Assembly (NCBI GenBank): GCA_002729595.1
Contig: PBYL01000482.1
Span: 1-64,000 of the forward strand
DNA length: 64,000 bases
Source of the DNA: Thalassovita sp.
GTDB lineage: Bacteria > Bacteroidota > Bacteroidia > Cytophagales > Flammeovirgaceae
Reading direction: 5' to 3'
Part shown: piece after piece, positions 10,467 through 33,332 of the stretch
Layout of the letters: each line of letters begins with the position of its first letter
Numbering within the stretch: the first letter of the stretch is position 1
The notes under the pieces: generated by a model
Seen by the model: the letters and a program-made list of their open reading frames with translations, nothing else
The model's database searches: none
Told to the model about the DNA's origin: nothing
Position numbers and translations under genes: made by a program

Positions 10467-11237
10467 TTAGTACATCACTTTCGCGACACTTTTCATAGAT
10501 TGATTAGGAACAAAATTTATAATATTTGATTTAGGCTTTTGATGGAGCTGAAGATTTCTAGCTATCAATTCAAGGATTTCTTTTGTATGATCGAACAAGA
10601 AAAAATGCCCACCTGGAAACCAAACTACTTCCACTTTTTTACTGGTTTCTACTTGCCAATCTGTTATTTGATGGGTGGTAATGTTTTCATCAGTACCTAA
10701 CAGAAGCGTAATCGGCAAATTGAATGGCGGCGTTCTCTGGTAATTGAAATTTTTAATCACCTGAAAATCTGCCTGTAAAATTGGTTTAAGTATTTTAATC
10801 AGCCTTGGGCTATTCAAGATCTTTTCTGGTATACCTCCAATTTCTATAAGCTGGGTGATAAACTCTTGTTTATCAAGCACTTTTAAAATGGGTTCATCTT
10901 CTAAAGTCGAAGGCGCTTTACCACCAGATAGAAACAAATGCAGTGGCAAAGGAAGTCTACTTCGAGTAATCTTCTTAGTAAGCAAATAAGCCAATAAAGT
11001 ACCCATGCTGTGGCCATAAATGGCATAAGGTGGCTCTAAATAAGATTCTATTTGCTTGAGTATATCATCAATAATTTTATCCGGATTATAAATCAGTTGC
11101 TCAGTAAACCGAGTTCCTCTTCCTGGTAAATCAACAGGTATAATTTGTAAACTGGATGGAGCCATTTCTACAAATTGTTTGTAAGCAAACCTGCTTCCTC
11201 CTGCATATGGGAGGCATATTAAATTGGCTTTTTCCAT
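10467..11237 (-). CDS. Type II thioesterase (GrsT/TesA-like)
   Basis: This 256-residue alpha/beta hydrolase starts with the family-typical LICLPYAGGSRFAYKQF. Its triad is visible: S77 in GHSMG, D183 in LLGTDENI and H211 in FPGGHFFLFD. Type II thioesterases remove wrong or stalled acyl groups from carrier-protein phosphopantetheine arms; some release the finished chain. It is the last gene of the minus-strand operon containing an ACP, two ketosynthase-type proteins, reductase and dehydratase, so a proofreading role for that ACP is the natural reading. The preceding 186 bp contain several hairpins, so its expression may be tuned separately. Confidence 0.92.
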   Translation of the reverse strand: MEKANLICLPYAGGSRFAYKQFVEMAPSSLQIIPVDLPGRGTRFTEQLIYNPDKIIDDILKQIESYLEPPYAIYGHSMGTLLAYLLTKKITRSRLPLPLHLFLSGGKAPSTLEDEPILKVLDKQEFITQLIEIGGIPEKILNSPRLIKILKPILQADFQVIKNFNYQRTPPFNLPITLLLGTDENITTHQITDWQVETSKKVEVVWFPGGHFFLFDHTKEILELIARNLQLHQKPKSNIINFVPNQSMKSVAKVMY

Positions 11238-11274: not shown

Positions 11275-11424
11275 AATCAATCCGCAGATAACACCACGGA
11301 TTGATTGTTTGAATTATAGCAGAAAAGCAAACGAGCTATAATACTACTTTATAAATCAGGTCTTCAATTAGTGAAATCACTAATAAATATCTTTATCAAA
11401 TCTGTTATCAACGTAAATGTTGAT
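11275..11424 (-). promoter_or_regulatory. Cluster of four intercistronic hairpins before the thioesterase gene
   Basis: Four inverted repeats fill the gap between the TonB receptor and the thioesterase: ATCAAC 11407-11412 with GTTGAT 11419-11424; ATTAGTGA 11367-11374 with TCACTAAT 11377-11384; ATTATAGC 11313-11320 with GCTATAAT 11335-11342; and AATCAATCCG 11275-11284 with CGGATTGATT 11297-11306. None has a clear U-tract. They may attenuate read-through or stabilise the upstream mRNA. Confidence 0.5.
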
Positions 11425-13762: not shown

Positions 13763-15004
13763 TTAATTTTTGATGTTAATCAGGTTTAGTAGATAAAGAA
13801 TTGTTTGTATGGCGGTTTGCATCGTGAGGTTTTCCTTGTCGTAATCTGGGTTGGTTTCTACCAGATCTAGACCGACTATATTTTTGTTTTGCAACACAAC
13901 CGAAAATAATTGCTTTATCTCTTCGAAATTGAAACCACCTGGAACTGGCGTAGCGGTACCTGGAGCCACAGATGGATCAAGTACATCAATATCAAAAGTG
14001 ACATAGTAAGGAACATCTGTTGGCAAATCGAAAGTTTTTCCTGCTTCCATCGCTCTTTTTATATCACTAAACCAGTAGATTTTTTGTCGGGCTTCTGGTC
14101 TTTGCCCCATGTTAGAAATTCCCCTAATTCCAAACTGATAAATTTGATTGAATCGAGCATCTTCTAAGCATTTAGAAACAAAATTACCATGATGGTGTGT
14201 TTTGTTACGATGCGTTAAATAATCGTATCGCGATCCGTAGGTATCTGTGTGAGCATCAAAATGAATGACATGTAGATCGGAATAATTATTTAAGGCAGCT
14301 TTTATGAGTGGATAACTAATTGAATGATCGCCACCCAAAAAAAACAGAACTACTTTTTTACTGAAAAGCTCATTGGCAATGGTGAATATTTTGTCGTACA
14401 CAAAGTTTCCTTCTTCACTTGTATTGATAAAGATATTGCCATAATCCTTAATCAACTCTTGCTGAAACAAAGAAGCTAGGTTTGTGAAATCTGCCTCTCC
14501 ATCTAGAAATTTGAAGTCTTCTGCTGTTGCACTTTTATTCAAATTAATCTTATAATGCTTCACCATTTCGCGCAGCTTATATGGAAAATTTCTAGAACCT
14601 GTAGACTCATTATTTCCTTTACCAAATGGTACGCCTACAAAAGAAATTTGTGGTTCAGATGAATGATTTTGATCTAACAATAAATTGCCTGTATTAAAAA
14701 GCCTGTTGGCAACAGGAGTAACTGTAATAGTTGCTTCTTCCTGCATTTCAGTGTCGAGTATCAATCCTTTTGACAGAAGAAAAGCAATCGTTTTTTCTAA
14801 TAAGGCATCTTGCAAGTCAAAGTGTTTTTCAATCTCAGTAAACAAGCGAGGCTTTTTTACATATTCGAGTATATCGACTATCATCGGCCCTACTTCGAAC
14901 ATATTTCCGCTGATAATGCTGTAAACTTTGGCTTTGCCATTTGGCTGCCAGTCAATCTCTGTAAATGGAGATTTCATTAAGCTGGTGATGGCATAATCTA
15001 TCAT
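13763..15004 (-). CDS. Peptide-arginase-like ureohydrolase with N-terminal PqqD-like domain
   Basis: The 413-residue protein is about 100 residues longer than ordinary arginases and agmatinases. The C-terminal domain keeps the binuclear-metal ligands: H227 in GGDHS, D250, H252 and D254 in DAHTD, and D338 and D340 in DIDVLDP. Residues about 24-85 (AKVYSIISGNMFEVGPMIVD then a helical and wing-like part to KGLIL) look like a PqqD-type leader-binding domain (RRE). The known OspR-type peptide arginases convert Arg to ornithine in ribosomal peptides. The invariant D-R-C of the nine neighbouring precursors supplies such an Arg. Its ATG overlaps the M50 stop in ATGA. The ureohydrolase fold is certain; a peptide substrate is inference. 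Confidence 0.87.
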   Translation of the reverse strand: MIDYAITSLMKSPFTEIDWQPNGKAKVYSIISGNMFEVGPMIVDILEYVKKPRLFTEIEKHFDLQDALLEKTIAFLLSKGLILDTEMQEEATITVTPVANRLFNTGNLLLDQNHSSEPQISFVGVPFGKGNNESTGSRNFPYKLREMVKHYKINLNKSATAEDFKFLDGEADFTNLASLFQQELIKDYGNIFINTSEEGNFVYDKIFTIANELFSKKVVLFFLGGDHSISYPLIKAALNNYSDLHVIHFDAHTDTYGSRYDYLTHRNKTHHHGNFVSKCLEDARFNQIYQFGIRGISNMGQRPEARQKIYWFSDIKRAMEAGKTFDLPTDVPYYVTFDIDVLDPSVAPGTATPVPGGFNFEEIKQLFSVVLQNKNIVGLDLVETNPDYDKENLTMQTAIQTILYLLNLINIKN

Positions 15005-16257
15005 ACTTTTTGAGCTCTGATGTTACGAACATAATTGCGAGAAACCTTGGTGTACTTGTAAGAGAAGTAAGTAATTACTCCCAAAGAGAAAAACGTTTTG
15101 GCATAAAACTCAATCGCACATATTGAAAAATCCATCGCTGCTATCTGGCTGAAAACCAAGCCTAAATCCATAATAGATTGAGCAATTAGTATCACTATAA
15201 ACTTAGCTATGTAGATAAAAAATGCATACTTCAATACAGAGTAAACTATCAAAAATGGATTTTTTAAGTTGATGTTTTTTAAAGCACTTTCATTCAGATT
15301 AATCGGTGCTTTAGGGAATAAATACTTTATAGCTTTCAACAAGTAAACATTTGATTGCTTTCTCAGATTTGGCAGATTAAACAAGTCGCTGTAAATCCAG
15401 TAACCATCGAACCTGAAAAATGGATTGAGATTAATTACCACTGTGCCCATGTTTAATATGATGATGTACATCAACACTTCAATTACTGTACTGTCGGTTA
15501 AATAGCGAAGTACATAAAATATCACCGTGTTTATGAGCAATTGCATGTAAATACCACCTAAGTTAATAATGGTTCGTTTCCAGCGATTCAGCTTCCAAAC
15601 GCCTGTGATATCAGCATACAAAACAGGCAAGGCTAGATAAAATCCGAAGCCAATGTTCTTAGGTTTTACACCATACATATATGAAGCTGCGGCATGTCCC
15701 ATTTCATGGAAAAACAAAACCATAAAAGCCAGTGGATAAAAGAGCAAAACATAATTGGCATTTCTTAAACACTCGCCAGTTTGTGCAGCAGTAGTGGCTG
15801 TATTGGCACCCAAAAACTGATTTACATAAAAGTAATTTACAGAGGCAGATCCAATAAACAAGATGGTAAACACTACCGGATGAAATGCATATTTAAATAC
15901 TTCTAGAAATATTCTGAGATGTTCAAATTTTACCAATGTCCACTGACCTTGAATGCCTGTAAGCGGTAACTGCTTTTTCTGACCTTCTGGAAGTGCTTTT
16001 TCAAACAAACCCAGCGGCTTAATGTGCTGCTCTATAATTCCAAATAAAGTGTCTTTGGTAAATTTATATTGATTGTTGCTCCAAATATTGAGAGATTCTA
16101 GCATCTCATCTGTAGATTTTTTCTCGGAAAGAAACCTGATAATTAAATACACAAGCTCCCCTACGTAATATGGTTTGTCGTTTACAGTTAGTAAAAATTT
16201 CTTCTTACCAGAAGCATCGATTTCTTCTATGGTATAGGTGGCTGTTAACTCATACAT
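15001..16257 (-). CDS. M50-family membrane metalloprotease with PqqD-like N-domain
   Basis: The 418-residue polytopic protein contains the zinc motif H184-E-M-G-H188 in a membrane segment. The second-half motif LNPFFRFDGYW carries D284 as third ligand; both are typical of M50 site-2-type proteases found in peptide natural-product loci. Residues about 5-88 precede the membrane part and look like a PqqD-type winged-helix domain (KKFLLTVNDKPYYVGELVYL then a helical part to PLGLF). It lies directly after the last precursor gene and overlaps the arginase gene by four bases. A leader-removing or release role at the inner membrane is likely; no dedicated exporter gene is seen nearby. Confidence 0.85.
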   Translation of the reverse strand: MYELTATYTIEEIDASGKKKFLLTVNDKPYYVGELVYLIIRFLSEKKSTDEMLESLNIWSNNQYKFTKDTLFGIIEQHIKPLGLFEKALPEGQKKQLPLTGIQGQWTLVKFEHLRIFLEVFKYAFHPVVFTILFIGSASVNYFYVNQFLGANTATTAAQTGECLRNANYVLLFYPLAFMVLFFHEMGHAAASYMYGVKPKNIGFGFYLALPVLYADITGVWKLNRWKRTIINLGGIYMQLLINTVIFYVLRYLTDSTVIEVLMYIIILNMGTVVINLNPFFRFDGYWIYSDLFNLPNLRKQSNVYLLKAIKYLFPKAPINLNESALKNINLKNPFLIVYSVLKYAFFIYIAKFIVILIAQSIMDLGLVFSQIAAMDFSICAIEFYAKTFFSLGVITYFSYKYTKVSRNYVRNIRAQKV

Positions 16258-16462: not shown

Positions 16463-16573
16463 TTATTTTTCACTGTAGATGCAACGATCTGCATCTGCTG
16501 CAACGGCAGTCATTTCGTGTCTTTCTTCAAGTTCTACTATGTTTAATGAGTCTTTAAGTATTTCTTTTGACAT
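16463..16573 (-). CDS. Precursor peptide 1 (type A, 36 aa)
   Basis: It starts MSKEILKDSLNIVELEERHE and continues M-TAVAADADRCIYSEK. I choose the ATG at 16573; an upstream extension to 16684 crosses a spacer and has no counterpart in the other copies. The leader of about 21 residues is nearly identical in copies 1-8. The core holds one Thr, one Cys and one Arg in the invariant DRC. Its protein is identical to copy 2. It is the last precursor before the M50 gene. Family resemblance to a published RiPP was not recognised; Arg is the presumed site for the arginase-like enzyme. Confidence 0.9.
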   Translation of the reverse strand: MSKEILKDSLNIVELEERHEMTAVAADADRCIYSEK

Positions 16574-16730: not shown

Positions 16731-16841
16731 TTATTTTTCGCTGTAGATGCAACGATCTGCGTCAGCTGCAACAGCAGTCATTTCGTGTCTTTCTTCCAAT
16801 TCTACGATGTTTAATGAGTCTTTTAAGATTTCTTTTGACAT
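16731..16841 (-). CDS. Precursor peptide 2 (type A, 36 aa)
   Basis: The translated product is identical to precursor 1 (leader ending ELEERHEM, core TAVAADADRCIYSEK), though the DNA differs at several codons. The start is the ATG at 16841, preceded in the transcript by the same CTATCACC-type context as its sisters. The synonymous differences argue that the protein sequence is under selection rather than being a very recent copy. The stop is TAA. It is followed in the transcript by structured spacer 1. Confidence 0.9.
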   Translation of the reverse strand: MSKEILKDSLNIVELEERHEMTAVAADADRCIYSEK

Positions 16842-17000: not shown

Positions 17001-17111
17001 TTATTTTTCGCTATAGATGCAACGGTCTGCATCAGCTGCAACAGCAGTCATTTCGTGTCTTTCTTCTAACTCTACAATGTTTAATGAATCTTTTAATACT
17101 TCTTTTGACAT
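17001..17111 (-). CDS. Precursor peptide 3 (type A, 36 aa)
   Basis: The leader differs from copies 1 and 2 only by Val for Ile at residue 5 (MSKEVLKDSL). The core TAVAADADRCIYSEK is unchanged. Stop TAA at 17001. It is separated from copy 4 by a short 69-bp spacer upstream and followed by a long structured spacer. The conserved DRC supplies Arg and Cys; Thr22 and Ser34 are the only hydroxy residues of the core. Confidence 0.9.
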   Translation of the reverse strand: MSKEVLKDSLNIVELEERHEMTAVAADADRCIYSEK

Positions 17112-17180: not shown

Positions 17181-17294
17181 TTATACTGCTTCTGTAATTG
17201 TGCAACGATCTGCTTCTGCTGCAATAGCAGTTAATTCGTGTCTTTCTTCTAATTCTACGATATTTAGTGCGTCTTTTAAGATTTCTTTTGACAT
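17181..17294 (-). CDS. Precursor peptide 4 (type B, 37 aa)
   Basis: It has leader changes S9 to A and M21 to L (ELEERHEL), and core TAIAAEADRCTITEAV. The stretch after DRC is CTITEAV in place of the CIYSEK tail of type A, giving two extra Thr. Like the other type B copies it is followed by a short spacer (69 bp) without the nested hairpins. Start ATG at 17294, stop TAA. Confidence 0.9.
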   Translation of the reverse strand: MSKEILKDALNIVELEERHELTAIAAEADRCTITEAV

Positions 17295-17455: not shown

Positions 17456-17566
17456 TTAAGCCTCTTTGTAAATGCAACGGTCAGCGTCAGCTGCAACAGC
17501 AGTCATTTCGTGTCTTTCTTCTAATTCTACAATGTTTAGCGCGTCTTTTAGGATTTCTTTTGACAT
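17456..17566 (-). CDS. Precursor peptide 5 (type A, 36 aa)
   Basis: The leader is as in copies 6 and 7 (MSKEILKDAL); the core TAVAADADRCIYKEA has no Ser or Thr after the Cys. The only hydroxy residue of the core is therefore Thr22, the only thiol Cys31. It is followed by a long structured spacer, as for all type A copies. Its start is exactly 190 bp from that of copy 6. Confidence 0.9.
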   Translation of the reverse strand: MSKEILKDALNIVELEERHEMTAVAADADRCIYKEA

Positions 17567-17639: not shown

Positions 17640-17756
17640 TTATACTAAGTCACCAGTAATGGTGCAACGATCTGCTTCTGCTGCTACAGCAGTCATTTCG
17701 TGTCTTTCTTCTAACTCTACAATGTTTAATGCGTCTTTTAGGATTTCTTTTGACAT
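17640..17756 (-). CDS. Precursor peptide 6 (type B, 38 aa)
   Basis: The leader ends ELEERHEM; the core is TAVAAEADRCTITGDLV. Compared with type A it has E for D at the sixth core residue and a CTITGDLV tail. Start ATG at 17756, stop TAA at 17640. It is a product of the 190-bp tandem duplication and is followed by a 73-bp spacer without the nested stems. Confidence 0.9.
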   Translation of the reverse strand: MSKEILKDALNIVELEERHEMTAVAAEADRCTITGDLV

Positions 17757-17829: not shown

Positions 17830-17946
17830 TTACACTAAGTCAGCACTAATAGTGCAACGATCTGCTTCTGCTGCTACTGCAGTCATTTCGTGTCTTTCTT
17901 CTAATTCTACAATGTTTAATGCGTCTTTTAAGATTTCTTTTGACAT
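17830..17946 (-). CDS. Precursor peptide 7 (type B, 38 aa)
   Basis: It is nearly identical to precursor 6; the tail is CTISADLV rather than CTITGDLV, so variation is confined to the residues after DRC. Start ATG at 17946, stop TAA at 17830. The spacer that follows is almost the same as that after copy 6, marking recent duplication. Confidence 0.9.
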   Translation of the reverse strand: MSKEILKDALNIVELEERHEMTAVAAEADRCTISADLV

Positions 17947-18071: not shown

Positions 18072-18106
18072 TAGGTGGTAAATCAAGTTTGGGCGAATCT
18101 TCTAGA

Positions 18107-18217
18107 TTAAGCTTCTTTGTAGATGCAACGGTCGCCATCTGCAGCAACTGCTGTCATTTCGTGTCTTTCTTCTAATTCTACAATGTTCAATGCGTCTTTA
18201 AGTACTTCTTTTGACAT
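18107..18217 (-). CDS. Precursor peptide 8 (type A, 36 aa)
   Basis: The leader begins MSKEVLKDAL. The core TAVAADGDRCIYKEA has Gly for Ala directly before the invariant DRC. Start ATG at 18217, stop TAA at 18107. It is followed by a long structured spacer and preceded by the short 55-bp spacer after precursor 9. Confidence 0.9.
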   Translation of the reverse strand: MSKEVLKDALNIVELEERHEMTAVAADGDRCIYKEA

Positions 18218-18272: not shown

Positions 18273-18410
18273 TTAGATATCTACTTTGCCTGAACCAGTA
18301 TCTTTGCAGCGGTCTATATCAACCGATGCTGCTGTTAGTTCAAACCTGCTTTCAAGTTCTACAATTGAAAGTGCATCTTTAAGCTCTCCACTTATTAGTT
18401 TCTTATTCAT
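18273..18410 (-). CDS. Precursor peptide 9 (divergent, 45 aa)
   Basis: This is the first precursor after the ACP gene. The start is MNKKLISGEL, then KDALSIVELESRFEL and core TAASVDIDRCKDTGSGKVDI. It keeps the IVELE-R-E leader signature, the T-A at the core start and the DRC. It differs at most other positions and has a longer Thr/Ser/Gly-containing tail. It shows which residues are required by the shared enzymes. It may be the ancestral copy or yield a distinct product. Stop TAA at 18273. Confidence 0.87.
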   Translation of the reverse strand: MNKKLISGELKDALSIVELESRFELTAASVDIDRCKDTGSGKVDI

Positions 18411-18609: not shown

Positions 18610-18897
18610 TTATTGTACTAGTGATTCTTCAGCCAAACGGTTGTAGATCATTTCACTTAATACATTCACATTCTGGAAAGATGTTTCATTAAACTCAGAA
18701 GGAAGTATGCCGAACTCTTCAGACAAGCGAGAAGCAATTTCAAGAATAGCTAAAGAATCTTGGATGATACCTGGCTCTTCATCAGTTCCGAAAAATGGAT
18801 CTTCGTTTCCGATATCTTCTGGAGATGCGCCATCGATTTCAAGAGCTTCAATAATGCATACTTTGATTTTTTCCTGAATTTGAGATAAAGTTTCCAT
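18610..18897 (-). CDS. Acyl carrier protein
   Basis: This acidic 95-residue protein has the carrier-protein helix II motif QDSLAILEIA. S48 is the expected phosphopantetheine attachment site (DSL). The sequence is longer at the front than FabI-pathway ACPs and carries an EDPFFGTDEEPG loop before the DSL, which resembles carrier proteins of dedicated type II pathways rather than housekeeping AcpP. The pantetheinyl transferase at 23598-24251 would activate it. It lies between the active ketosynthase and the precursor array, and its cargo is presumably the chain for the peptide acyltransferase. Confidence 0.9.
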   Translation of the reverse strand: METLSQIQEKIKVCIIEALEIDGASPEDIGNEDPFFGTDEEPGIIQDSLAILEIASRLSEEFGILPSEFNETSFQNVNVLSEMIYNRLAEESLVQ

Positions 18898-18989: not shown

Positions 18990-20201
18990 TCAGCTAAAAC
19001 TTTGTATCGCAATGGCCGACATATTTCCAGCAAAACCAAAGGAGTTCGAAATCGCCGTATCGAATTTGTAATCGAGACCTTTGTCTTTTACGATTACCAA
19101 ATTGTGGTCTTCTGCTTCCAAAATCGGATCAGAAAGATTAATAGTTGGCGGAATAAATCCATCGTGCATAGCCACTGTTGTTGCAACCAGTTCCACACTG
19201 CCTGCTGCGCCTAAAGTATGCCCAGTCATAGACTTGGTAGAGCTTACAAACACCGGTCTTTTGTCTGCCAGTTTTCTTATGGCTTTAATCTCCATCGTAT
19301 CATTAGCAGCGGTAGCCGTACCATGCGCATTGATGTATTCCACTTTGCCTATATCGATCTTGCCTTGCAATAAAGCTTTTTGCATTGCTGAGTAAGCAAA
19401 ACCTCCATCAGGACAAGGAGCCGTTGCGTGATACGCTTCATTAATGGTCGAATAACCTTTTATTTCAGCATAGATCTTTGCATTTCTCTTCTTTGCAGAA
19501 CTTAGGCTTTCTAGTATTACAAATGCACCAGCATCACCTAAATTAAGACCATCTCTGTTTTTATCAAATGGCTTACATGCTCCTTTTGAGATTGCTTGTA
19601 GTGCATTAAAACCACTGTAAGTTAGTTCTGTAAATACATCTACACCACCGGCAATCATGTAATCTACTCTTCCTTTCGAGATAAAGTCGAAGCCTCTGCC
19701 TATTGAGTTCGTTCCTGCTGCGCAAGCTGTCGAGATAGTTGAAATAGGACCTCTTAGATCGTATTGCTTGGCAATGTTACCTCCGATAGTAGAAGTTGTA
19801 TGAAAGAGCAAGTTGATATCTTTAGCAGGTTCTCCGTCAATTTTGTTTTTTACCCATCTCATAAATGGATAACTCGCTCCTACTGAAGTAGCTACGGCTA
19901 CTCCCATTCTTCTATTATTTATTTTATCCATTTGCAAGCCTGCATCTTCAATGGCATCCTGTACTACTTTTTTAGATAGATCACTGAGAATCGTTGCGTC
20001 TTTTTCGTATAAATCGTCGTACAGTTCTGGTTCCAATATGCAAGCACTGTTGTTTCTGTAAACAGGCAAGCTGGTGTCAAATCTTCGAGTGGGAATTTGC
20101 TTTAATCCGGAGTTTCCATTGCGCAAATTGGTTTTAAATTCTTGCAAGTCTTTACCGATTGAGCATAGTATTCCCAGTCCAGTTATTACAACTCGTTCCA
20201 T
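18990..20201 (-). CDS. Beta-ketoacyl-ACP synthase, catalytically intact (KS-alpha type)
   Basis: I place the start at ATG 20201 (MERVVITGLG), giving 403 residues; the 26-residue extension to 20279 would overlap the reductase gene and lacks family residues. The catalytic set is complete: C160 in STACAAG, H293 in NAHGT, K323 and H328 in STKSMTGH. It is therefore a condensing FabF-like enzyme that elongates acyl-ACP with malonyl units. The operon also encodes a KS-like protein without the catalytic Cys, so the two could form an alpha/beta pair as in type II polyketide or aryl-polyene systems. It follows the FabG-like gene by 61 bp. Confidence 0.93.
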   Translation of the reverse strand: MERVVITGLGILCSIGKDLQEFKTNLRNGNSGLKQIPTRRFDTSLPVYRNNSACILEPELYDDLYEKDATILSDLSKKVVQDAIEDAGLQMDKINNRRMGVAVATSVGASYPFMRWVKNKIDGEPAKDINLLFHTTSTIGGNIAKQYDLRGPISTISTACAAGTNSIGRGFDFISKGRVDYMIAGGVDVFTELTYSGFNALQAISKGACKPFDKNRDGLNLGDAGAFVILESLSSAKKRNAKIYAEIKGYSTINEAYHATAPCPDGGFAYSAMQKALLQGKIDIGKVEYINAHGTATAANDTMEIKAIRKLADKRPVFVSSTKSMTGHTLGAAGSVELVATTVAMHDGFIPPTINLSDPILEAEDHNLVIVKDKGLDYKFDTAISNSFGFAGNMSAIAIQSFS

Positions 20202-20262
20202 AGCGTTTAATATTTGATGATTGATTATGAAATTGAATAAAGGTGTTTTACAATCATCTGCA

Positions 20263-21012
20263 TTATACGCCGATGCCACCGTCTATGGTAATCTCCTGCC
20301 CGATGATGTATTGAGGGGCTGCACTTGCTAGATAACTAACCAAATTTGCTACTTCTATAGAAGTTCCCATTCTTTTAAGCGGGCTTCTCGACATGCGCTC
20401 TTCAAAATAACCATTGTTTAGGTTTGAAGTCATATCTGTCTCGATTAAGCCAGGAGAAACACAGTTTATAATTACTCCTGAGCGAGCTACTTCTTTGGTA
20501 AGTGCTTTAGAGAATGAAACAATCGCTGCTTTTGAAGCTGAATAAGCTGATTGTCCTGGATTGCCTTTTTGGCCTGATAGGGATGTGATATTGATAATTA
20601 CTCCACGCTTCTGGCGAATCATCATCGGTAGTACATTGCGACAGGTGTTTACCACACTAGCCACATTGGTTTTTACTACCTTCCACCATTCATCGTCTGT
20701 AGTGAACATAAACGGGCGGCTATTTCCAAGAATTCCTGCATTGTTTACTACTACATCAATCTTCGGAAATTCTTTTTTGATATTTTTAAATAAGCTGGCT
20801 ACTTCTTTACTATCGCTCATATCGCACTTAAGTGCTTTTGCTGTCGGTAAATTGTGTTCTGCGATTTCATTTACGAGTGACTCAGCCATTTCTACCTTGC
20901 TTAAGTAGGTAAATATTACTCTGTAACCTTGATGAGCAAGTTCTAGTGAGATAGCTCTACCTATTCCCCGAGTGCCACCAGTTACAAGGGCTATTTTTTG
21001 ATGTGCTTCCAT
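20263..21012 (-). CDS. 3-oxoacyl-ACP reductase, FabG-like SDR
   Basis: The 249-residue classical SDR has nucleotide loop TGGTRGIGRA (11-20), NNAG (90-93), and catalytic S144 with Y157-x-x-x-K161 in SAYSASKAA. It ends in the family-typical IIGQEITIDGGIGV. It would reduce the beta-keto group made by the adjacent ketosynthase with NADPH. Its place between the TPR gene and the KS gene, and the dehydratase in the same operon, give a full reduce-and-dehydrate cycle. No enoyl reductase is present, so an unsaturated or polyene chain is the likely product. Confidence 0.93.
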   Translation of the reverse strand: MEAHQKIALVTGGTRGIGRAISLELAHQGYRVIFTYLSKVEMAESLVNEIAEHNLPTAKALKCDMSDSKEVASLFKNIKKEFPKIDVVVNNAGILGNSRPFMFTTDDEWWKVVKTNVASVVNTCRNVLPMMIRQKRGVIINITSLSGQKGNPGQSAYSASKAAIVSFSKALTKEVARSGVIINCVSPGLIETDMTSNLNNGYFEERMSRSPLKRMGTSIEVANLVSYLASAAPQYIIGQEITIDGGIGV

Positions 21013-21797: not shown

Positions 21798-23042
21798 TTA
21801 ATATTTCTTGAGAACCATACTGGTGGTATTACCTCCCAAATGGATGGAGTTTACAATAGCATAGTTGATTTTATCTTTTACCTCTATACTTTCTTCTGGT
21901 ATAATAATCTGCTTATTTACACCTTCCAGTACTTGATTTGGAAAGCCTGTGCCTGGTACCATTTCGTATTTTACACCCAGTGCTCCTGTAGCCAGCGAAA
22001 GTGTTGCTGATGCTCCCAGTGTTTCACCAGTTTTAGATTTAATAGTGGTATAGTAAACCTCTTCTTTTTTACACACATTTTCGATGGCTTTCGCTTCGTA
22101 GCTTTTTACCTGCCAAGGCAAGCAAGAACCGCCAACTACCAAATCCACATCGTTTTCGCTAATTCCTGTGTGTTGGATGGAATCTAACATAACAGAAGCC
22201 AAGTCGGTATGGGAGCGCTCTGTTAGCAAGTGATTTCCAATACCATCGCATCCGGTAGAATAGCCCAATACTTCTGCGTAGATAGGTGCATTTCTTTCGA
22301 GTGCGTGCTCCAGTTTTTCCATTACTACAAAGGCAGAACCTTCACCAAGAATAAGTTTTCCTTCCTCTTCAGGAGTGCCCAATTTTTCTTTGAGTGAAAC
22401 ATATTCTCCCTTTTCATTTTTAGGTGATAGTACTTTATCACTCAATACATAATTAAAAAAAGTAGAATCTCTTAGTTCATCAAAACCGCCACAGATCATA
22501 ACATCTGCTTTGTCGTCTTGCAGCAGATCGAAACCATAAGCTGCGCTGTTTTCTCCCAAAAGCATAGAGCTTGGGCCTCTTAATTTAAAAAAGCGAGTTA
22601 CATCTCCCAGAGCACAATTGGCCACTGTTTTAGTAAAGTTCAGCGGACTTACCTTATCTGCACCTCTTTCATACAGTTTAGTCAAGTAACTCTCGACCGC
22701 TGCATTAGCAGCTATATCTGTATTTAAGATCAACCCTAATCTTTCTGGTGAGAATGAAGGTAGGTCTAGCTGTGCGTCATCAATCGCCAAATGACAGCCC
22801 AGCATAGCCAATTGCGAATACCTCAGGGGAAATGGAAAACGTAAACCAGCTAAATAATTCTTTATTGAAAACTCTGTGCAAACGCCACAGTATTGTTTTT
22901 CTATTTCTTGGTATTCCCACTTTTCTCTAAGCGAGATACCAGATAAGTTTTGAGTAATTTTATCGATAAACGAAGCTTTTCCCACACCCATGCTAGACAC
23001 CGTTCCAACTCCGGTAATTACAATTCTTTGTTGATTTTCCAT
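21798..23042 (-). CDS. Ketosynthase-like protein lacking catalytic Cys (KS-beta / chain-length-factor type)
   Basis: The 414-residue protein has the overall thiolase fold of FabF (IVITGVGTVSSMGVGKASF at the start, KSKTGETLGASATLSLATGAL near the end). The active-site segment reads RGPSSMLLGENSAAYGF, placing N165 where Cys should be. The NAHGT His is replaced (VVGGSCLPWQ) and the KSMTGH His is Glu (KSKTGE). Such degenerate partners act as chain-length factors with an active KS. Together with the KS at 18990-20201 it implies a type II PKS or aryl-polyene-like chain. A structural or decarboxylating role is possible. Confidence 0.85.
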   Translation of the reverse strand: MENQQRIVITGVGTVSSMGVGKASFIDKITQNLSGISLREKWEYQEIEKQYCGVCTEFSIKNYLAGLRFPFPLRYSQLAMLGCHLAIDDAQLDLPSFSPERLGLILNTDIAANAAVESYLTKLYERGADKVSPLNFTKTVANCALGDVTRFFKLRGPSSMLLGENSAAYGFDLLQDDKADVMICGGFDELRDSTFFNYVLSDKVLSPKNEKGEYVSLKEKLGTPEEEGKLILGEGSAFVVMEKLEHALERNAPIYAEVLGYSTGCDGIGNHLLTERSHTDLASVMLDSIQHTGISENDVDLVVGGSCLPWQVKSYEAKAIENVCKKEEVYYTTIKSKTGETLGASATLSLATGALGVKYEMVPGTGFPNQVLEGVNKQIIIPEESIEVKDKINYAIVNSIHLGGNTTSMVLKKY

Positions 23043-23084: not shown

Positions 23085-23555
23085 TCAGGAGATATGAACA
23101 GTTACGCTACCTTTTGCTGCTACTTTGCCTTCGCAAATTACTTTGGCATCAAACTCAGAGAAACCCATTAGTTTGTGTTTAAACTTTACTTCTATTTCAA
23201 GTTTGCTCTCTGGCCTCACCTCTTTGTGAAAAGATACATTTTTAATTTTGATAGCTCTGCCAGAAGCTGGTTTCTGCGGAACCTGAACTTGTTCGGAATT
23301 GCCAAAGTTGAGCGCTTCTAATCTGCCGTATAAGCCGCAGGTTTGGAACATCATCTCTACCAGAATTACACCTGGCAAAAGTGGGTAGCCCGGAAAATGA
23401 CCTTGGAAAAAGATTTCATCTTTGCCAATCTCTTTATTGGCTGTGAGTGATTCACCAAACTTAAAGTCAACGATATTATCTACCAATAAAAATGGCGGGC
23501 GATGTGGCAATAGCGTTTCTGGTTTTGGGTAATCAATTTTCGTTTCGGTAATCAT
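23085..23555 (-). CDS. 3-hydroxyacyl-ACP dehydratase, FabZ-like hot-dog protein
   Basis: The 156-residue protein has LLPHRPPFLLVD (15-26), the motif FFQGHFPGYPLLPGVILVEMMFQ (split here as FFQGHFPGYPLLPG and VILVEMMFQ) with H53 and E67 as the expected catalytic pair, and the hot-dog end strand GKVAAKGSVTVHIS. It would dehydrate beta-hydroxyacyl-ACP to the trans-2-enoyl form. Without an enoyl reductase, repeated cycles would leave conjugated double bonds. It is shorter than typical DH domains of PKS and close to FabZ length. Confidence 0.92.
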   Translation of the reverse strand: MITETKIDYPKPETLLPHRPPFLLVDNIVDFKFGESLTANKEIGKDEIFFQGHFPGYPLLPGVILVEMMFQTCGLYGRLEALNFGNSEQVQVPQKPASGRAIKIKNVSFHKEVRPESKLEIEVKFKHKLMGFSEFDAKVICEGKVAAKGSVTVHIS

Positions 23556-23597: not shown

Positions 23598-24251
23598 TTA
23601 AAATTCTTTGACTAATTGGACTAAATCCACCTCTTTCGTTTCGATATCCACCGACTTCTGGTGAAAAGCGATACAACACACATAATCGGTATGAATATCT
23701 AGTTGATGGATGTAATAAGTATTTTGACCTTGATAGTAAATATTTTCTGGGCAGTAAATCTCTGTAAAAGCCATTCCGAGTCCGTTTCCATCTACTTTTC
23801 CTATTGCTTCTTTCTTTGCCCAAACAGTAATCTTGCTATGATTATCCATATCTTGATCTTCTAATGGATGGAGAAAAAAACTCGATGCTCTTTTACTAAT
23901 TTTTACCACATGTTGTATATCTATTCCCACTTTACACTGGGGAGCAATGGCGCAAATAATGATATCTTTTGAGTGCGAGATATTAAAATCTATCTGTAAG
24001 TTTTGAAAAAATGGTCTGCCATTTCCAGAATAATATATCTCTTGTAAAGCATCCTCATAATAGCCCATGTCTTTTAAACCATGTGATAACAGCAACTTGC
24101 CCGTGAGTGATAATGCTCTTGCTCTTTCTGCTTTATACATAGACAGACGCTTCTTTAGCACTGGAGGAAAACGCTCCATAATGCTTGTTACCAGCTCTGC
24201 AGAGGGTAACTGATCTATCTTTGTATAATATACCTGACAACTTTTGAGCAT
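23598..24251 (-). CDS. 4'-phosphopantetheinyl transferase, Sfp type
   Basis: The 217-residue protein has the PPTase motifs NISHSKD (90-96), VGID at 108-111 and W144-x-x-K147-E148-A-I-G-K152. D111 and E148 are magnesium ligands. The usual Glu after GIDI is Gln here (GIDIQ, Q113), a tolerated change in some members. It would attach phosphopantetheine to S48 of the ACP in this operon. It ends 42 bp before the FabZ-like gene. Encoding its own PPTase makes the module self-contained, as is common in transferred secondary-metabolite clusters. Confidence 0.88.
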   Translation of the reverse strand: MLKSCQVYYTKIDQLPSAELVTSIMERFPPVLKKRLSMYKAERARALSLTGKLLLSHGLKDMGYYEDALQEIYYSGNGRPFFQNLQIDFNISHSKDIIICAIAPQCKVGIDIQHVVKISKRASSFFLHPLEDQDMDNHSKITVWAKKEAIGKVDGNGLGMAFTEIYCPENIYYQGQNTYYIHQLDIHTDYVCCIAFHQKSVDIETKEVDLVQLVKEF

Positions 24252-24273: not shown

Positions 24274-25698
24274 CTATTTTGCGACTTTAACAGAATTGGC
24301 TTTTAGGAACTCAATTTTCACTTTTTCCCATGCATTAAACTGGAAGTGCTCGCACAGTAACAAGTAGACTGATTCGTGCGTGAGCTTACAAGCTGGCATG
24401 GTGACTATAGAAATAATGGTTTCGCCATTTTTTACATCTACTATGGCTTTTAGCACTTTTCCGGTGCTGTAGATTGCATTGGCTATTTCTTGAAACCAGA
24501 TGCTGCGACCTTCCACTTCAATCTGGTTTTTACTTCTGCCTAACACAAAGAGTTTTCCTGTTTCAGAGAAGTAAGCCATGTCTTCTGTGAGTATATTTTG
24601 TTGTGGCTTTACATGAGGAGGCAACTCATGCATATATCCATTCATTACCGAAGGACTCTCAATTAACACTCTGCCAATTTCGTTCGATTTGGTATCATTC
24701 CCTTTGGCATCCAACACCCTCATTTTCACACCTTCTAGTGGATAACCAACTGAATCGATTTCAGGATCTGTTGGCGTTTCAACTTTGTAAGTACTCACTC
24801 TTGGTCCAGCCTCTGCAAGTCCGTATGTTTTTATAAATGGACAGCTAAAAACATTCATGGCTCTTTGTAGAGACTCTTTTTCTATGTGATTCCCACCTAC
24901 TGTAATAAACCTCAGCGAGCTAAAATCACCTGTAAAAAATCCTTTCTCCTGCATGTAATTGATCTGCCTAATCATAGGTGGCACAGTAAACAAAGAGGTT
25001 GCTTTACTAGCAGGAATCAATCTTGGAATTTGGGTAATGGCAAACCTTGCATCTGCCAAAACAATTTTACTACCTACATACAAATGGCTGAGAAACTGTG
25101 CGATCAAACCATATGAATAGTTCATGGGTAAAGCCATTATGGTAGTATCATCTGGGCGAATCCCGATCGATTTTACATTGGCTTTGATGTTAGCAATGGT
25201 GCCAACTGCACTCAGTTTTATCACCTTGCTAATGCTTGTACTTCCAGAACTAGTCACGAGCAAAGCGGTATCTTCTAAGTACTTATGAGGATTATAGTGA
25301 CCGTTTTTAAAGAGAAAGCTGATATTGAAAATAGATTCGCATTTCAGCTTTCTTTCAATCAGAGATTTGTAAAGTGCCGAACTCGTATTTTTTTCGTGAG
25401 CCAGATAGCCATAGCAGTTCAATTTTTCAAAATCGATGGCATTTTCTTGTAATTCATTTACAATAAGCGGAATGGCTTCGAGCTGTAAAAGTGCTAAGAA
25501 TATAATAGATAGTTCAATAGAATTCGGGAACGAGAGCACAATGATTTTTCCCTTATCAATTCCCTGCTTTTCTAGCTCTTTTGCATAGAGGTTTACTTTT
25601 GCCCATAGCTCGCTATAAGTAATACCTTTTCCGCTTTCGATGAGTGCAACTGAGTTACTACAATTCTCTTTGAGAATATTAATGATGGAATGATTCAT
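24274..25698 (-). CDS. AMP-dependent acyl/aryl-acid ligase
   Basis: The 474-residue adenylate-forming enzyme has the Ser/Thr/Gly-rich loop LLVTSSGSTSISKVIKL (about 154-170), ITVGGNH, KTYGLAEAGPRVSTY, and hinge LGRSKNQIEVEGRSIWF. The C-terminus ends NSVKVAK, where the catalytic Lys is expected. Enzymes of this type load a carboxylic acid on CoA or carrier protein, often the starter unit of type II or aryl-polyene chains. The substrate pocket cannot be read reliably by eye. It is preceded by the acyltransferase and followed by the PPTase in the same operon. Confidence 0.88.
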   Translation of the reverse strand: MNHSIINILKENCSNSVALIESGKGITYSELWAKVNLYAKELEKQGIDKGKIIVLSFPNSIELSIIFLALLQLEAIPLIVNELQENAIDFEKLNCYGYLAHEKNTSSALYKSLIERKLKCESIFNISFLFKNGHYNPHKYLEDTALLVTSSGSTSISKVIKLSAVGTIANIKANVKSIGIRPDDTTIMALPMNYSYGLIAQFLSHLYVGSKIVLADARFAITQIPRLIPASKATSLFTVPPMIRQINYMQEKGFFTGDFSSLRFITVGGNHIEKESLQRAMNVFSCPFIKTYGLAEAGPRVSTYKVETPTDPEIDSVGYPLEGVKMRVLDAKGNDTKSNEIGRVLIESPSVMNGYMHELPPHVKPQQNILTEDMAYFSETGKLFVLGRSKNQIEVEGRSIWFQEIANAIYSTGKVLKAIVDVKNGETIISIVTMPACKLTHESVYLLLCEHFQFNAWEKVKIEFLKANSVKVAK

Positions 25699-25734: not shown

Positions 25735-26907
25735 TTAAGACGCCAATTTAGATTGAATTAAAACCCGTTTTTCTATCAGGTTTTGTAAGAGTGAGTCAGA
25801 GAGATTTGCAGCAATGCTATACTCAGGATTCACGGTTTCTCGCTTATCCAAAAAGCTTAATAACTCTTCGTTAATTTCGTAGGCACTATAGCTTGCCCTG
25901 TTAAACAGAAAACAGTTTTCGTCTAGTTTAAAAAGGCTATACTCCGTTTTATTGAAGACTAAATTTTCCACAGCTCCGCCATTATCTGTTGTATTTTCTA
26001 TACTGATTACACGCTTTATATTATCCCAATCGAGGTATTTGTGCACATAAAGCCAACCCTCCCATTGGTCGTAATAAGTAAGCAGTTTTTCTTCGAGTAT
26101 CTTATACAAATAAGAGGTAACTGTGTAGCAATAATCTTCTTTTCCTTTGGTCCACTCAAGTGGATTAATCGGATCATAAAATTTGAGTTTTACGTCTTGT
26201 TCATGGTCATCATACCAGGAGATCACCGGAATAACAGGCACTTTTGCGGCATAAGAAAGGGTGGTAATTCCCTTTCTCGAATAGAGGTTTTGATGTAAAA
26301 AAGGAATATTCAAAAATTGAGGGTCTTTTTTATAGATACCTCCTACTCCGGTGTTACCATCCAGGTATGCTACAACTGATCTGCCAGATCGAATGTGTTT
26401 AAATAGTCGGATTGCAATGTCGTGTTGTTCTGCTGCTTCGAGCCCAAAATAGGACGATTGGTTAAAGTTGGCATGTATTGAGTTTACAATTTCAGTAACT
26501 TTTATGTGCTGCTTATTATAGGTGTTTTGGTCTACCAAAAGTACAAAGTCTATGCCTGCACTGGCCAATACCCCTATAATTGACCGGTAAGAACCCAAAT
26601 GATAAGTACAGTATATAGCTGGTGTTTGTTGTTCTAGACAACTGGTGTCGCCTATGCGGTTGATGTTGTTTATAAGGTCAGGATACGACGGTTCTGTCAC
26701 CAATCGTGAGTTGTTGTAAAGGATGTTATAGTATATGTTTTCATGCGATGATACTGGAACAGTTGGCAAAAAGTTGGATAAATTTGCTGATAAAAAATTG
26801 AAATCTTTTAGTTGCTTTTCTTGCTTCTTACGCTGTTCGCGTTTGGTAATATGCTCTTTGAGACGATGATAGTTTTGTTTGTAAAGTTGGCTGCTGATAG
26901 TTTCCAT
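25735..26907 (-). CDS. LpxL/HtrB-like acyltransferase with C-terminal PqqD-like domain
   Basis: The 390-residue protein has the lysophospholipid/lipid A acyltransferase layout: TYHLGSYRS (H103 as the catalytic His of an H-x4-[D/E]-like motif, here ending in Arg), then YLDGNTGVGG, and KGITTLSYAAKVPVIPVISW. Residues about 310-388 (FKLDENCFLFNRASYSAYEI then a helical and wing-like part to EKRVLIQ) look like a PqqD-type leader-binding domain. No transmembrane anchor is visible at the start. An acyltransferase carrying a RiPP leader reader should move the ACP-made chain to the peptide, perhaps to ornithine formed by the arginase-like enzyme. That substrate is inference. Confidence 0.8.
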   Translation of the reverse strand: METISSQLYKQNYHRLKEHITKREQRKKQEKQLKDFNFLSANLSNFLPTVPVSSHENIYYNILYNNSRLVTEPSYPDLINNINRIGDTSCLEQQTPAIYCTYHLGSYRSIIGVLASAGIDFVLLVDQNTYNKQHIKVTEIVNSIHANFNQSSYFGLEAAEQHDIAIRLFKHIRSGRSVVAYLDGNTGVGGIYKKDPQFLNIPFLHQNLYSRKGITTLSYAAKVPVIPVISWYDDHEQDVKLKFYDPINPLEWTKGKEDYCYTVTSYLYKILEEKLLTYYDQWEGWLYVHKYLDWDNIKRVISIENTTDNGGAVENLVFNKTEYSLFKLDENCFLFNRASYSAYEINEELLSFLDKRETVNPEYSIAANLSDSLLQNLIEKRVLIQSKLAS

Positions 26908-26974: not shown

Positions 26975-27496
26975 TTAGCTAAATGTGCAAGTGCTCAAAT
27001 AATCTTTAGAGATATCGATTGAAACAGATTGTTTTAAAGCTTGTAACTGAACTACAAATCTGCTTTTACCATTTTCTCTTACTAGTATGCCTTCTGTTCC
27101 TGCAAACTGGCCTTTGGTAATTGTTACTCTGTCGCCAATGTGGTAGTTATCTGCGGTAGAAGATACTACTGGGTTTCCACAAAGTACTTTTTTGATTGAT
27201 TCAATCTCTTCTTCAGGAATTGAAACTGGTGAACCTCCAAAAGAAATGAAGTTTACTAAACCTCTCACTTTCATTAAATTGAATCTCTCTTGCGAGCTAG
27301 TTTTTACAAATACATAGTTTGGAAAAAGCGGTGTTTCAATTTCTTTTTTGCGATCGCTCCATTGGCGAACTTCTTTTTGCATGGGAAGAAATGTTTCGTA
27401 ACCCAATTCATTTACTTTGTTTCTAACTTGCTTTTCAGCTTGCGGATATGTGTAAACAACATACCAAGACGGATTTAAATGAGCGTTTTTTTTCAT
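26975..27496 (-). CDS. Specialised NusG paralog (UpxY/LoaP-like antiterminator)
   Basis: I start at ATG 27496 (MKKNAHLNPSWYVVYTYPQAEKQV), giving 173 residues; the longer frame to 27547 adds a basic stretch without family similarity. It has the NGN domain (WYVVYTYPQAEKQVRNKVN; PLFPNYVFVK; VRGLVNFISFGGSP) and a KOW motif (GDRVTITKGQFAGTEGILV). Paralogs at the head of long secondary-metabolite or capsule operons (UpxY, LoaP) stop premature termination across them. Here it is the first gene of a 17-kb operon with strong hairpins in the precursor spacers. Confidence 0.92.
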   Translation of the reverse strand: MKKNAHLNPSWYVVYTYPQAEKQVRNKVNELGYETFLPMQKEVRQWSDRKKEIETPLFPNYVFVKTSSQERFNLMKVRGLVNFISFGGSPVSIPEEEIESIKKVLCGNPVVSSTADNYHIGDRVTITKGQFAGTEGILVRENGKSRFVVQLQALKQSVSIDISKDYLSTCTFS

Positions 27497-27933
27497 GGTT
27501 TTATAGTTTTTGCGTTTTCTTCTTCTTTGGATATGGCTTCGCCACATTGGGTCACAAGCCCTATTTTTAATAAATTATATGTCTCCTCCGCCTCTTTCAG
27601 GTTTCTTAAAAACTCTGGAGCTTCTTTCTTTTTGTCTTCCCTTCATCTCCTTTGTTATTTCAAAGATGCACCAGAATATTCGCCATTTGAAAATTATTAC
27701 ACGAACCCGCTTTTTATAAGTACTAATATTTCAAAAAAGATTTTTATAGTGTTTATGGTGGATAAAACCCCGGTTTTGGAGGTATAAACCAGAAATAAAA
27801 TAGATAACTATGGACTAATCCGGTATTTTGAGATGAATAGCAATGATTTCTTTATAACTAATTAATAGTAATTCTGGATTTGAAGGATATTTTCTATATT
27901 ACCCAATAGAAAAATTTGACTTGCTATACCATT
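27497..27933. other. Divergent control region between the NusG-like and LanB genes
   Basis: 437 bp that must hold both the promoter of the biosynthetic operon (minus) and that of LanB (plus). It is AT-rich (for example TAGATAACTATGGACTAATC near 27799-27818). I see no strong palindrome or recognisable riboswitch. Frames crossing it, such as 27479-27787, lack coding features. A long 5' leader for NusG-type regulation is possible. Confidence 0.6.
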
Positions 27934-31076: not shown

Positions 31077-31811
31077 TTACTTTTTACCGCCCATTATTTT
31101 TTCTTTTAGCACTTCAAAAAATGGTTGGCGGTAAGTATCTCCAAGAGGCAAATAAGCTTTCATGTTATAAAGTAGAATTTGGTTTCCATCTACCGCTTTA
31201 ATTTGATCTAAAGCTACAATATATGAGCGATGCACACGCATAAACTTCTTTTCTGGCAGTCTAGCTTTTAGATCTTTGATGTTTAGCAATGTTACCACTC
31301 TTTCACCATCGCTGGTATAAATGGAAACATAATTTTTTAGTCCCTCTACATAGGTAATATCTTTAAAATTAACCTTTACCATTTTTCCCTTGTTCTCTGT
31401 TTTCACAAAGATGTAATCGTCTTCATTTTCTTCAGACTGCCAGTCGGGCATATTGAAAATATCTTTGTTAAGCGCTTTTTGTGCCGCAGTTAAAAAACGT
31501 TGAAAAGGAATAGGTTTTAAAAGGTAATCGAGCGCCTCATACTCAAAACCTTCAATTGCAAATTCGCTATAAGCTGTGGTAAAAATTACTTTACATTTGC
31601 CTCCAAGCATCTTAATTAGATCAATCCCAGTAAGATGTGGCATTTGGATGTCCATAAAAATAAGATCAATCTGGTGGTTATTTACCAGTTGCAATACTTC
31701 CATGGGGTTGGTAGTGGTATCAATGAGTTTTAAAAATGGGGTACGCTCAATATATTCTTTCAAAATATTGATAGCACCTTGTTCGTCGTCAACGACCAGA
31801 CATGTAATCAT
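31077..31811 (-). CDS. LytTR-family response regulator
   Basis: The 244-residue protein has a receiver domain with the acidic pocket and Asp in LIFMDIQMPHLTG, then LKPIPFQRF. A LytTR DNA-binding domain at about 135-240 includes DITYVEGLKNYVSIYTSDGE and FMRVHRSYIVALDQIKAVDGN. The gene overlaps the histidine-kinase gene by 4 bp. This pair type is common in Bacteroidota. It lies between LanB and the precursor/LanC genes but on the opposite strand, so a regulatory role for this RiPP locus is likely though not shown. Confidence 0.93.
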   Translation of the reverse strand: MITCLVVDDEQGAINILKEYIERTPFLKLIDTTTNPMEVLQLVNNHQIDLIFMDIQMPHLTGIDLIKMLGGKCKVIFTTAYSEFAIEGFEYEALDYLLKPIPFQRFLTAAQKALNKDIFNMPDWQSEENEDDYIFVKTENKGKMVKVNFKDITYVEGLKNYVSIYTSDGERVVTLLNIKDLKARLPEKKFMRVHRSYIVALDQIKAVDGNQILLYNMKAYLPLGDTYRQPFFEVLKEKIMGGKK

Positions 31812-32809
31812 AGCATTATCTTTAAGTTAGTTGAGTAAAATTCTCCTTCGTTTTTTGAATTAAATGAGTAGTTTTTTCCGTAAATAGCATCGAGTCTTTT
31901 TAAAGTATTGGTAAGCCCAACACCAGTAGACTTTTCTGCTGGAATAGCCCTTTTCTTATTAAATGTACTAAAAATTAAATAATCATCCTTCACATCTAGT
32001 GTAATGATGATCGGATGTTCTGGATCGTTGGCATTTCCATGTTTAAAACAATTCTCCACTAGTGTAATAAGCACCAATGGGATGATCATTCTAAATTGTG
32101 TTTTACCAATTATCTCGAATTTAATTTGTAGGGTGTTCTCGAATCGTAGTTGATTAATGGCAATGTAATTCTTAATGTGTATCACTTCTTCTTCCAGCAT
32201 CACTTTACCTTCTATATCTTCTTGAAAAGCATAGCGCATAATATCTGAAAGTAAGAGTATTCCTTCGGCAGTTTTCTCAGATACTTTATGAATCTTTGAA
32301 TACAAAAAATTAAGAGTATTAAACAAAAAATGTGGATTAATCTGACTCTTTAACATGGCCACTTCTACCTTTCTTCGCTCTTTCTCTGTTTTAATCATAT
32401 TGGTGGCAAACCAATATCCGATACTCAACATAATAAAATAACCACCACGCCAGATTGATTCTGCTAAAAAACGATTCGATGTTCTAAACTCATATACCAA
32501 GTCATATCCAAAAAGTGGGATAATATATATTTTCAAAATATACCTTAGTGATACAAAAATCGCAATAGTTAATAATAGACTAGGAACAAGTAACAAATAC
32601 TTTCCTCTTTTATAGAAGTTTGGAAAAATTACTAGCGCATTGGTGTAAAAAAGCGCAGCATAGAGAGAGAAGTTGAAGAATGTTTCCCAGAAATTAAAAT
32701 AGTTACTATCTATAATAAATATCGTGGAGAGTTCATAAATCACATAAAAAATCCATACAAAGACATGGATTGAGATAGTCTTTAATTCTTTCTGCTTTAA
32801 TTGGATCAT
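31808..32809 (-). CDS. LytS-like sensor histidine kinase
   Basis: The 333-residue protein has four or more N-terminal membrane helices (about 12-140). The phosphoacceptor His sits in KSQINPHFLFNTLNFLYSK, followed by an ATPase part with LVENCFKHG and GVGLTNTLKRL. These kinases sense membrane or envelope signals and phosphorylate a LytTR partner. The ATG of the regulator overlaps its stop, so the two are coupled. Its promoter lies in the 391-bp region shared with the 43-aa precursor. Confidence 0.93.
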   Translation of the reverse strand: MIQLKQKELKTISIHVFVWIFYVIYELSTIFIIDSNYFNFWETFFNFSLYAALFYTNALVIFPNFYKRGKYLLLVPSLLLTIAIFVSLRYILKIYIIPLFGYDLVYEFRTSNRFLAESIWRGGYFIMLSIGYWFATNMIKTEKERRKVEVAMLKSQINPHFLFNTLNFLYSKIHKVSEKTAEGILLLSDIMRYAFQEDIEGKVMLEEEVIHIKNYIAINQLRFENTLQIKFEIIGKTQFRMIIPLVLITLVENCFKHGNANDPEHPIIITLDVKDDYLIFSTFNKKRAIPAEKSTGVGLTNTLKRLDAIYGKNYSFNSKNEGEFYSTNLKIML

Positions 32810-33200: not shown

Positions 33201-33332
33201 ATGAAAACGCAAAATTCTATCTCAAAAAAAATCGTCCTAAGAAAAAGAACAATAACAAAATTAGACACAGTAAAATCTGTAAATAAGAAACAATCGACTA
33301 CGATTACAACGACAAGCACTATTTCTTTTTAA
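33201..33332 (+). CDS. Bacteroidota class I lanthipeptide precursor without cysteine (43 aa)
   Basis: The leader MKTQNSISKKIVLRKRTITK followed by LD matches the Bacteroidota class I lanthipeptide pattern, in which a basic L-x-L-x-K-x-T-I-x-x-L stretch precedes the core. The remaining residues, ending KKQSTTITTTSTISF, contain nine Ser/Thr in the last 13 and no Cys anywhere in the peptide. LanB could dehydrate several of them, but no thioether can form within it. The gene sits 83 bp before a LanC-like gene whose zinc ligands are altered. It is too short for usual gene callers. The start is the only ATG in frame. Confidence 0.8.
   Translation: MKTQNSISKKIVLRKRTITKLDTVKSVNKKQSTTITTTSTISF

Follow-up and report, generated by a model that had tools for sequence, protein, structure and literature searches.

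The stretch of DNA analysed here (the window) comprises 64,000 nucleotides of a Thalassovita sp. contig and carries a biosynthetic operon, the features of which are listed in Table 1. The open reading frame of the acyltransferase P0001, on the minus strand, is real and complete. It lies in a precursor operon, as described in an initial annotation made from the sequence. Nine small precursor ORFs (16463-18410) belong to this operon, together with genes for an arginase and an M50 protease and with fatty-acid or polyketide genes. Loci containing relatives of P0001 are numbered with the prefix L.

Table 1. Features of the acyltransferase operon and the neighbouring regulatory genes, in order of position
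Feature	Position	Strand	Remarks
LytS-type histidine kinase (PF06580)	31808..32809	-	syntenic in L024
LytTR response regulator	31077..31811	-	syntenic in L024
UpxY/RfaH-type NusG paralogue	26975..27547	-	operon head; NF033644 over cut-off
LpxL-fold acyltransferase P0001, C-terminal RRE-like domain	25735..26907	-	390 aa, complete ORF, ATG start
HLGSYR, residues 103-108	26584..26601	-	catalytic His kept; H+5 acid position is Arg
D183 of YxDGN	26359..26361	-	invariant, 81/81; aligned to D of DQ in LpxL
W282-E283-G-W285	26053..26064	-	insertion found in this family and not in canonical LpxL
RRE/PqqD-like C-terminal domain, residues 314-389	25741..25968	-	fold comparison; weak profile support
AMP-ligase, inferred starter acyl loading	24274..25698	-	PF00501; nearest AmcH
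4'-phosphopantetheinyl transferase	23598..24251	-	
FabZ/FabA-like dehydratase	23085..23555	-	PF07977
KS-like chain-length factor	21798..23042	-	without Cys-His-His
TPR-like protein, possibly secreted	21081-21743		among polyketide genes; no Pfam match over cut-off
Ketoreductase (FabG-like)	20263..21012	-	
Ketosynthase	18990..20279	-	Cys-His-His retained; translation probably begins at an internal ATG
Acyl carrier protein	18610..18897	-	PF00550 just under cut-off; QDSLAI motif
Precursor 1	18273..18410	-	...DIDRCKDTGSGKVDI
Precursor 2	18107..18217	-	...DGDRCIYKEA
Precursor 3	17830..17946	-	...EADRCTISADLV
Precursor 4	17640..17756	-	...EADRCTITGDLV
Precursor 5	17456..17566	-	...DADRCIYKEA
Precursor 6	17181..17294	-	...EADRCTITEAV
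Precursor 7	17001..17111	-	...DADRCIYSEK
Precursor 8	16731..16841	-	...DADRCIYSEK
Precursor 9	16463..16573	-	...DADRCIYSEK
M50 intramembrane metalloprotease, putative leader protease	15001..16257	-	daptide/epipeptide type
PF00491 ureohydrolase, putative peptide arginase, Orn-forming	13763..15004	-	extra ~95-aa N-terminal domain
TonB-dependent-type outer membrane receptor	11424..13610	-	
Type II thioesterase	10467..11237	-	PF00975

The polyketide genes make up a highly reducing type II PKS set, with a ketosynthase (KS), a chain-length factor (CLF) devoid of catalytic residues, a ketoreductase (KR), a dehydratase (DH) and an acyl carrier protein (ACP). In five clusters, that of the window included, none of the three catalytic residues (Cys, His and His) is present in the KS2-type partner; its partner KS retains them in the clusters where this was checkable. 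KS2 is a chain-length factor, a point missed in the initial annotation. No enoyl reductase was seen in the operon, so the KS-CLF pair, KR and DH of the window, judged by gene content, probably make a polyene. The TPR-like protein has counterparts at a similar place in L024 (15067-15795) and L087 (4681-5370). As the TonB-dependent-type receptor follows the operon of the window, so outer membrane barrel proteins follow five sister clusters.

The ureohydrolase metal motifs GGDHS, DAHxD and DxDxxDP are conserved in the protein encoded at 13763-15004, which has the ureohydrolase fold (Z ~31, with arginase matches filling the fold-comparison list). It belongs to PF00491, the family of KgrD, and not to pfam12640, the OspR type.

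Fold and active site of the acyltransferase

The protein had been described as an LpxL-type acyltransferase, and its homology to LpxL is firm at the level of the family. P0001 alone matches PF03279 (Lip_A_acyltrans) weakly, below the cut-off of a Pfam search (E=0.01); 30 of the 46 family members match it, the best with E 2.4e-8. An AlphaFold2 model with those 46 sequences as input (pLDDT 92.1, pTM 0.90) resembles LpxM (5kn7) over residues 31-339 with Z 21.1 and PatA (5f2t) over residues 34-295 with Z 20.9. As modelled, P0001 is a soluble acyltransferase with the LPLAT fold of the LpxM/PatA type and not the GNAT fold, in accordance with the earlier suggestion that it differs in fold from GNAT-type maturases. 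A search of PDB sequences with P0001 found no match, and NCBIfam holds no model for the acyltransferase family or for the precursors. The A4 profile matched nothing but designed TIM barrels, across ~40 residues, which was taken as chance.

Despite this fold the protein is not classed as an LpxL, because two defining features, the N-terminal anchor and the HX4(D/E) dyad, fail. The absence of a membrane anchor, noted previously, is evident from the best 19-residue hydropathy within the first 80 residues, which is 0.65 in P0001 against 1.71 in canonical LpxL; the medians for the family and for canonical LpxL are 0.58 and 1.71. Of the dyad that characterises LpxL and LpxM, the family keeps the His and has lost the acid. 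The HLGSYR motif lies at the residues originally given for it. Loss of H103 in orthologues had been named as evidence that would count against a peptide acyltransferase, and none was observed: the residue is present in all 81 aligned relatives, which were gathered with a scan pattern that contained the His, and in 10/10 when P0001 is taken with nine relatives from pattern-free searches. The acid position, H+5, lay outside this pattern; it is Arg in 71 of the 81 relatives and Asp or Glu in none, as opposed to Glu or Asp in 31/31 canonical PF03279 proteins from the same order, three of them from the window's genome. Across the same alignment W282, like D183, is invariant, and R211 (78/81) and E283 (75/81) are nearly so. 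A thiol acceptor, being more readily deprotonated than a sugar hydroxyl, could explain this loss of the acid.

The C-terminal part had been called PqqD-like, and residues 314-389 do resemble RRE/PqqD-like domains, with Z 5.8 to the lasso-peptide RRE TbiB1 (5v1v) and Z ~5.7 to the MccB peptide clamp. RRE-type matches of this region span Z 4.9-5.8 over ~72 residues, which is suggestive rather than decisive because a Z below 8 can reflect a common arrangement and is also scored by unrelated structures. A profile comparison of this domain with the N-terminal domain of the arginase gave E 6.6e-4, with a probability of only 27% (controls, E 0.3-0.4).

Distribution and neighbours of the family

Members of the family occur sporadically, being present in 6 of the 58 genomes of the relatives search, counting that of the window, and in 7 of 395 genomes of the class; the same search found none in other genomes of the genus and family. 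A scan of genome contigs yielded 74 loci, nearly all from Bacteroidota, and besides these two proteobacterial MAG contigs. The nine pattern matches in viral contigs include no relative, and plasmids gave no match. In a tree the family forms a clade separate from canonical LpxL (SH-aLRT 99), within which the sister clusters containing polyketide genes, namely L024 (syntenic with the window), L087, L025 and L026, group with the window in one clade (SH-aLRT 95).

The partners that recur across orders are the precursor, the M50 protease, the arginase and rSAM enzymes. M50, arginase or both are found in L026, L038, L044, L060, L067, L085, L097, L007, L022, L021 and L088, and rSAM maturases in L007, L022, L085, L077 and L080. 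The M50 gene is mostly absent from the loci of Spirosoma, Larkinella, Runella and Chitinophagaceae, and at many loci the maturation genes consist of the precursor and the acyltransferase alone.

One gammaproteobacterial MAG contig (L097, 1-3147) shows a convincing context of a precursor (TYRCCYECKVP), M50, arginase and the start of an LpxL-like gene, reflecting either transfer beyond Bacteroidota or mis-binning. In L077 (7381-7876) and L080 (7473-7945), small ORFs that occur in pairs and share an RPRGCN motif represent another precursor type with the same enzyme family; these loci carry an rSAM gene as well, together with a series of genes of ~305-320 aa that are cupin/JmjC-like by appearance. 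The Flexibacter/Bernardetia branch (L081, L083, L084, L010 and L011) has proteins of ~430-470 aa with no visible precursor and may have another substrate; in L010 and L011, Ser replaces the Arg at H+5. Tandem LpxL-like genes in the polyketide-containing clusters L025 (9986-12334) and L026 (9980-12288) suggest two acylations or two acceptors.

Precursors, acceptor residue and rival readings

A conserved short precursor adjoining the acyltransferase was called in 70 loci, and 11 of the examined loci had no called precursor. In the window, eight of the nine precursors share the leader LKD(A/S)LNIVELEERHE(M/L)TA(V/I)AA, the ninth having a related one, and all nine contain DRC. A Cys is present within the last 30 residues in 91/91 precursors from the 70 loci, hand-added cases included; since the latter were picked by eye with Cys in view, the fairer figure is 56/56, from the 35/35 and 21/21 ORFs of two precursor families assembled purely by similarity. 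Arg-Cys occurs in the precursors of 6/7 arginase loci and 3/63 others (Fisher p 4e-6, relatedness ignored). One of the three exceptions, L025, is cut by the end of its own contig, and L026 has an arginase yet Lys-Cys precursors. This implies that Cys is a general feature of the system and Orn-Cys a special case. The new acceptor proposed in the initial annotation was an ornithine-containing core peptide. As a general rule ornithine fails, because most loci have no arginase and in ten precursors from ten loci, with ends such as LESSSCFDSD and IETSCYPVP, neither Lys nor Arg is present in the stretch that starts ten residues ahead of the last Cys and runs on to the C-terminus. What stands of that proposal is the retargeting of an LpxL-fold enzyme to a ribosomal peptide, for which the recurrent precursor, M50, arginase and rSAM neighbours, the RRE-like domain and the loss of anchor and acid all argue. 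From these comparisons Cys appears a better general candidate than ornithine.

That the family acylates peptides is considered likely, and P0001 would be the acyltransferase of a RiPP pathway. The C-terminal RRE-like domain of P0001 would bind the leader of a small precursor, and the LpxL fold, with its His and without the canonical Glu, would then move an acyl group from a carrier-protein thioester onto the core peptide. In the window this chain is most likely a polyene produced by the AMP-ligase, ACP, KS-CLF, KR and DH, and the site most likely to accept it is Orn-Cys, derived from Arg-Cys; the favoured first transfer would be to the thiol of the invariant Cys, and the adjacent ornithine, formed by the arginase, would be a possible final N-acceptor. 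The M50 protease would cut off the leader. In the ancestral module of precursor, acyltransferase and LytTR regulator, an acylated peptide signal would be both made and sensed. The fold, the gene partnerships, the residue conservation and the loss of the acid are observed, while the acylation itself, the acceptor, the chain, the sequence of steps and the signalling are inferred. The scheme as a whole is the best explanation and is held with fair confidence, while Cys as the first acceptor is rated just short of evenly balanced. In arginase clusters the ornithine beside Cys may be the final acceptor or a mere neighbour.

Two rival readings keep the peptide as substrate and move the site of attachment. 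In the first, the LpxL fold would acylate the side chain of ornithine directly through an amide bond, as in the selidamides. This would accord with the arginase and the Arg preceding Cys in all nine precursors of the window, and with the way Arg-Cys tracks arginase genes among the relatives; acyl-ornithine exists in selidamides (PMC12703449). However, the arginase is missing from most family members, and neither the ten precursors devoid of Lys and Arg around Cys nor L026 fits, which makes this reading unlikely. Acylation of the new N-terminal amine left by M50 cleavage, resembling that of lipolanthines, is improbable: the protease is a frequent partner, and N-terminal acylation is known in class III lanthipeptides (PMC13060382), but for the most part M50 is missing in Spirosoma, Larkinella, Runella and Chitinophagaceae, an RRE implies that the leader is still attached during the reaction, and the invariant Cys is left unexplained.

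The remaining rivals take the enzyme away from peptide acylation altogether. Replacement of the HX4E acid by Arg across the family raises the question of whether P0001 could be inactive, a catalytically dead LpxL scaffold presenting the peptide to other enzymes, and LpxM E127A is a catalytic-residue mutant, according to the title of PDB entry 5knk. The invariance or near-invariance of His103, Asp183, Arg211 and Trp282 in very diverged sequences argues against this, as do two-gene loci that offer no other enzyme to serve, and it is regarded as quite improbable. The acyltransferases of aryl-polyene and flexirubin clusters are thought to acylate a lipid or glycan, and the window's KS-CLF/KR/DH set resembles aryl-polyene loci. 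Together with the LpxL fold and its matches to lipid acyltransferases, this could suggest that the polyene is put on a lipid or glycan and that the peptides are independent. Yet most relatives have no polyketide genes and still adjoin a precursor, the membrane anchor and catalytic acid have been lost and an RRE-like domain is present, and three canonical LpxL genes exist elsewhere in the genome; this reading is judged very improbable.

Acylation of a ribosomal peptide is the preferred reading, and it can be set against known systems. With LpxL/LpxM/HtrB and PatA (PF03279), P0001 shares the core fold, the position of the catalytic His and the D183 block, and presumably acyl thioester donors; it differs in lacking the HX4E/D acid and the anchor, and in its WEGW insertion, RRE-like domain and peptide-gene neighbourhood. 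Ribosomal peptide fatty acylation, with arginase-made ornithine in some cases, is shared with the selidamide (phaeornamide, kamptornamide), lipolanthine and goadvionin GNATs. These have an unrelated fold, and the residue that the precursors of the present family have in common is Cys rather than Lys or Orn. GNATs are listed for microvionin, for the goadvionins and for lipoavitides and selidamides in a 2026 paper (PMC13060382), among whose references is one on a CoA-transferase for lipolasso peptides. Conversion of Arg to Orn in a RiPP links the putative arginase to the enteropeptin arginase KgrD and the OspR peptide arginases. KgrD is a PF00491 arginase working on Arg beside a Cys-derived ring (PMC12703449); unlike it, the window's enzyme has an extra N-terminal domain and its cluster contains no rSAM thiomorpholine enzyme. 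The DAG-RiPPs of Bacteroidota (DybA; PMC12636315) carry a lipid on a Cys-containing peptide, but use the lipoprotein pathway with a signal peptide and no LpxL-like enzyme. No precedent for LpxL-type RiPP lipidation or for a LytTR signalling cassette was found in the open-licence papers searched.

Through gain of a peptide-binding domain and alteration of its active site, a lipid A-type acyltransferase has apparently been rebuilt in Bacteroidota to put fatty or polyene chains on tiny Cys-containing peptides. This would add a further fold for lipidating ribosomal peptides to the GNATs and the recently reported CoA-transferases, in an enzyme that would work without the textbook catalytic acid. 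At ~1.3 kb, the two-gene versions are compact enough for this chemistry to be tried directly in E. coli.

LytTR regulators and a possible signalling role

LytTR signalling genes accompany the acyltransferase family, a link that the initial annotation missed, and an unexpected minimal module consists of precursor, acyltransferase and LytTR regulator. A LytS-type kinase lies directly downstream on the same strand at 20 of 78 loci, with a LytTR response regulator next in 18 of these, an arrangement spanning Chitinophagaceae, Sphingobacteriaceae and others. At 32/78 loci a divergent membrane LytTR protein and a LuxR-type response regulator are located upstream, although these counts are not independent because the divergent arrangement is one conserved Spirosoma/Larkinella/Runella locus. 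By comparison, of 577 further genes in these loci, 8 encode a kinase of this type, a LytTR regulator or a membrane LytTR protein. The LytS/LytTR assignments were confirmed with Pfam on examples.

Many relatives adjoin genes that sense signals, which would suit a lipidated peptide serving as a message between bacteria, and a signalling role of the family is possible rather than probable. The combination of a precursor with a modifying enzyme, a sensor kinase and a regulator, which in Agr is of the LytTR type, recalls ComQXPA and Agr, of which ComX is lipidated and AgrD has a key Cys. Like these systems the loci have an adjacent sensor kinase and response regulator; unlike them they are found in Gram-negative Bacteroidota, the signal is putative, and the modifying enzyme is of the LpxL fold rather than ComQ or AgrB. 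More tentatively, peptide signalling of this type in Bacteroidota could involve S-acylation of Cys by the RRE-bearing enzyme and sensing by the LytS/LytTR pair, with the window as an elaborated version using a polyene and ornithine. A functional LytTR link would provide a lipidated peptide signal for Bacteroidota, a group for which the open-licence papers searched described no such pheromone.

Between the kinase and regulator pair of the window and the P0001 operon stands a gene for a full-length LanB (27916-31065). Similar small Ser/Thr-rich, Cys-free ORFs were observed just upstream of LANC_like genes in the window (33201-33332, plus strand) and in L024 (3763-3882, minus strand), a Cys-free precursor being odd for a LanC system. 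As such an ORF is present, action of LanB and LanC on the precursors of the P0001 operon was rejected; LanB and the nearby ORF of the window may form a separate or cooperating lanthipeptide-like unit on the same island.
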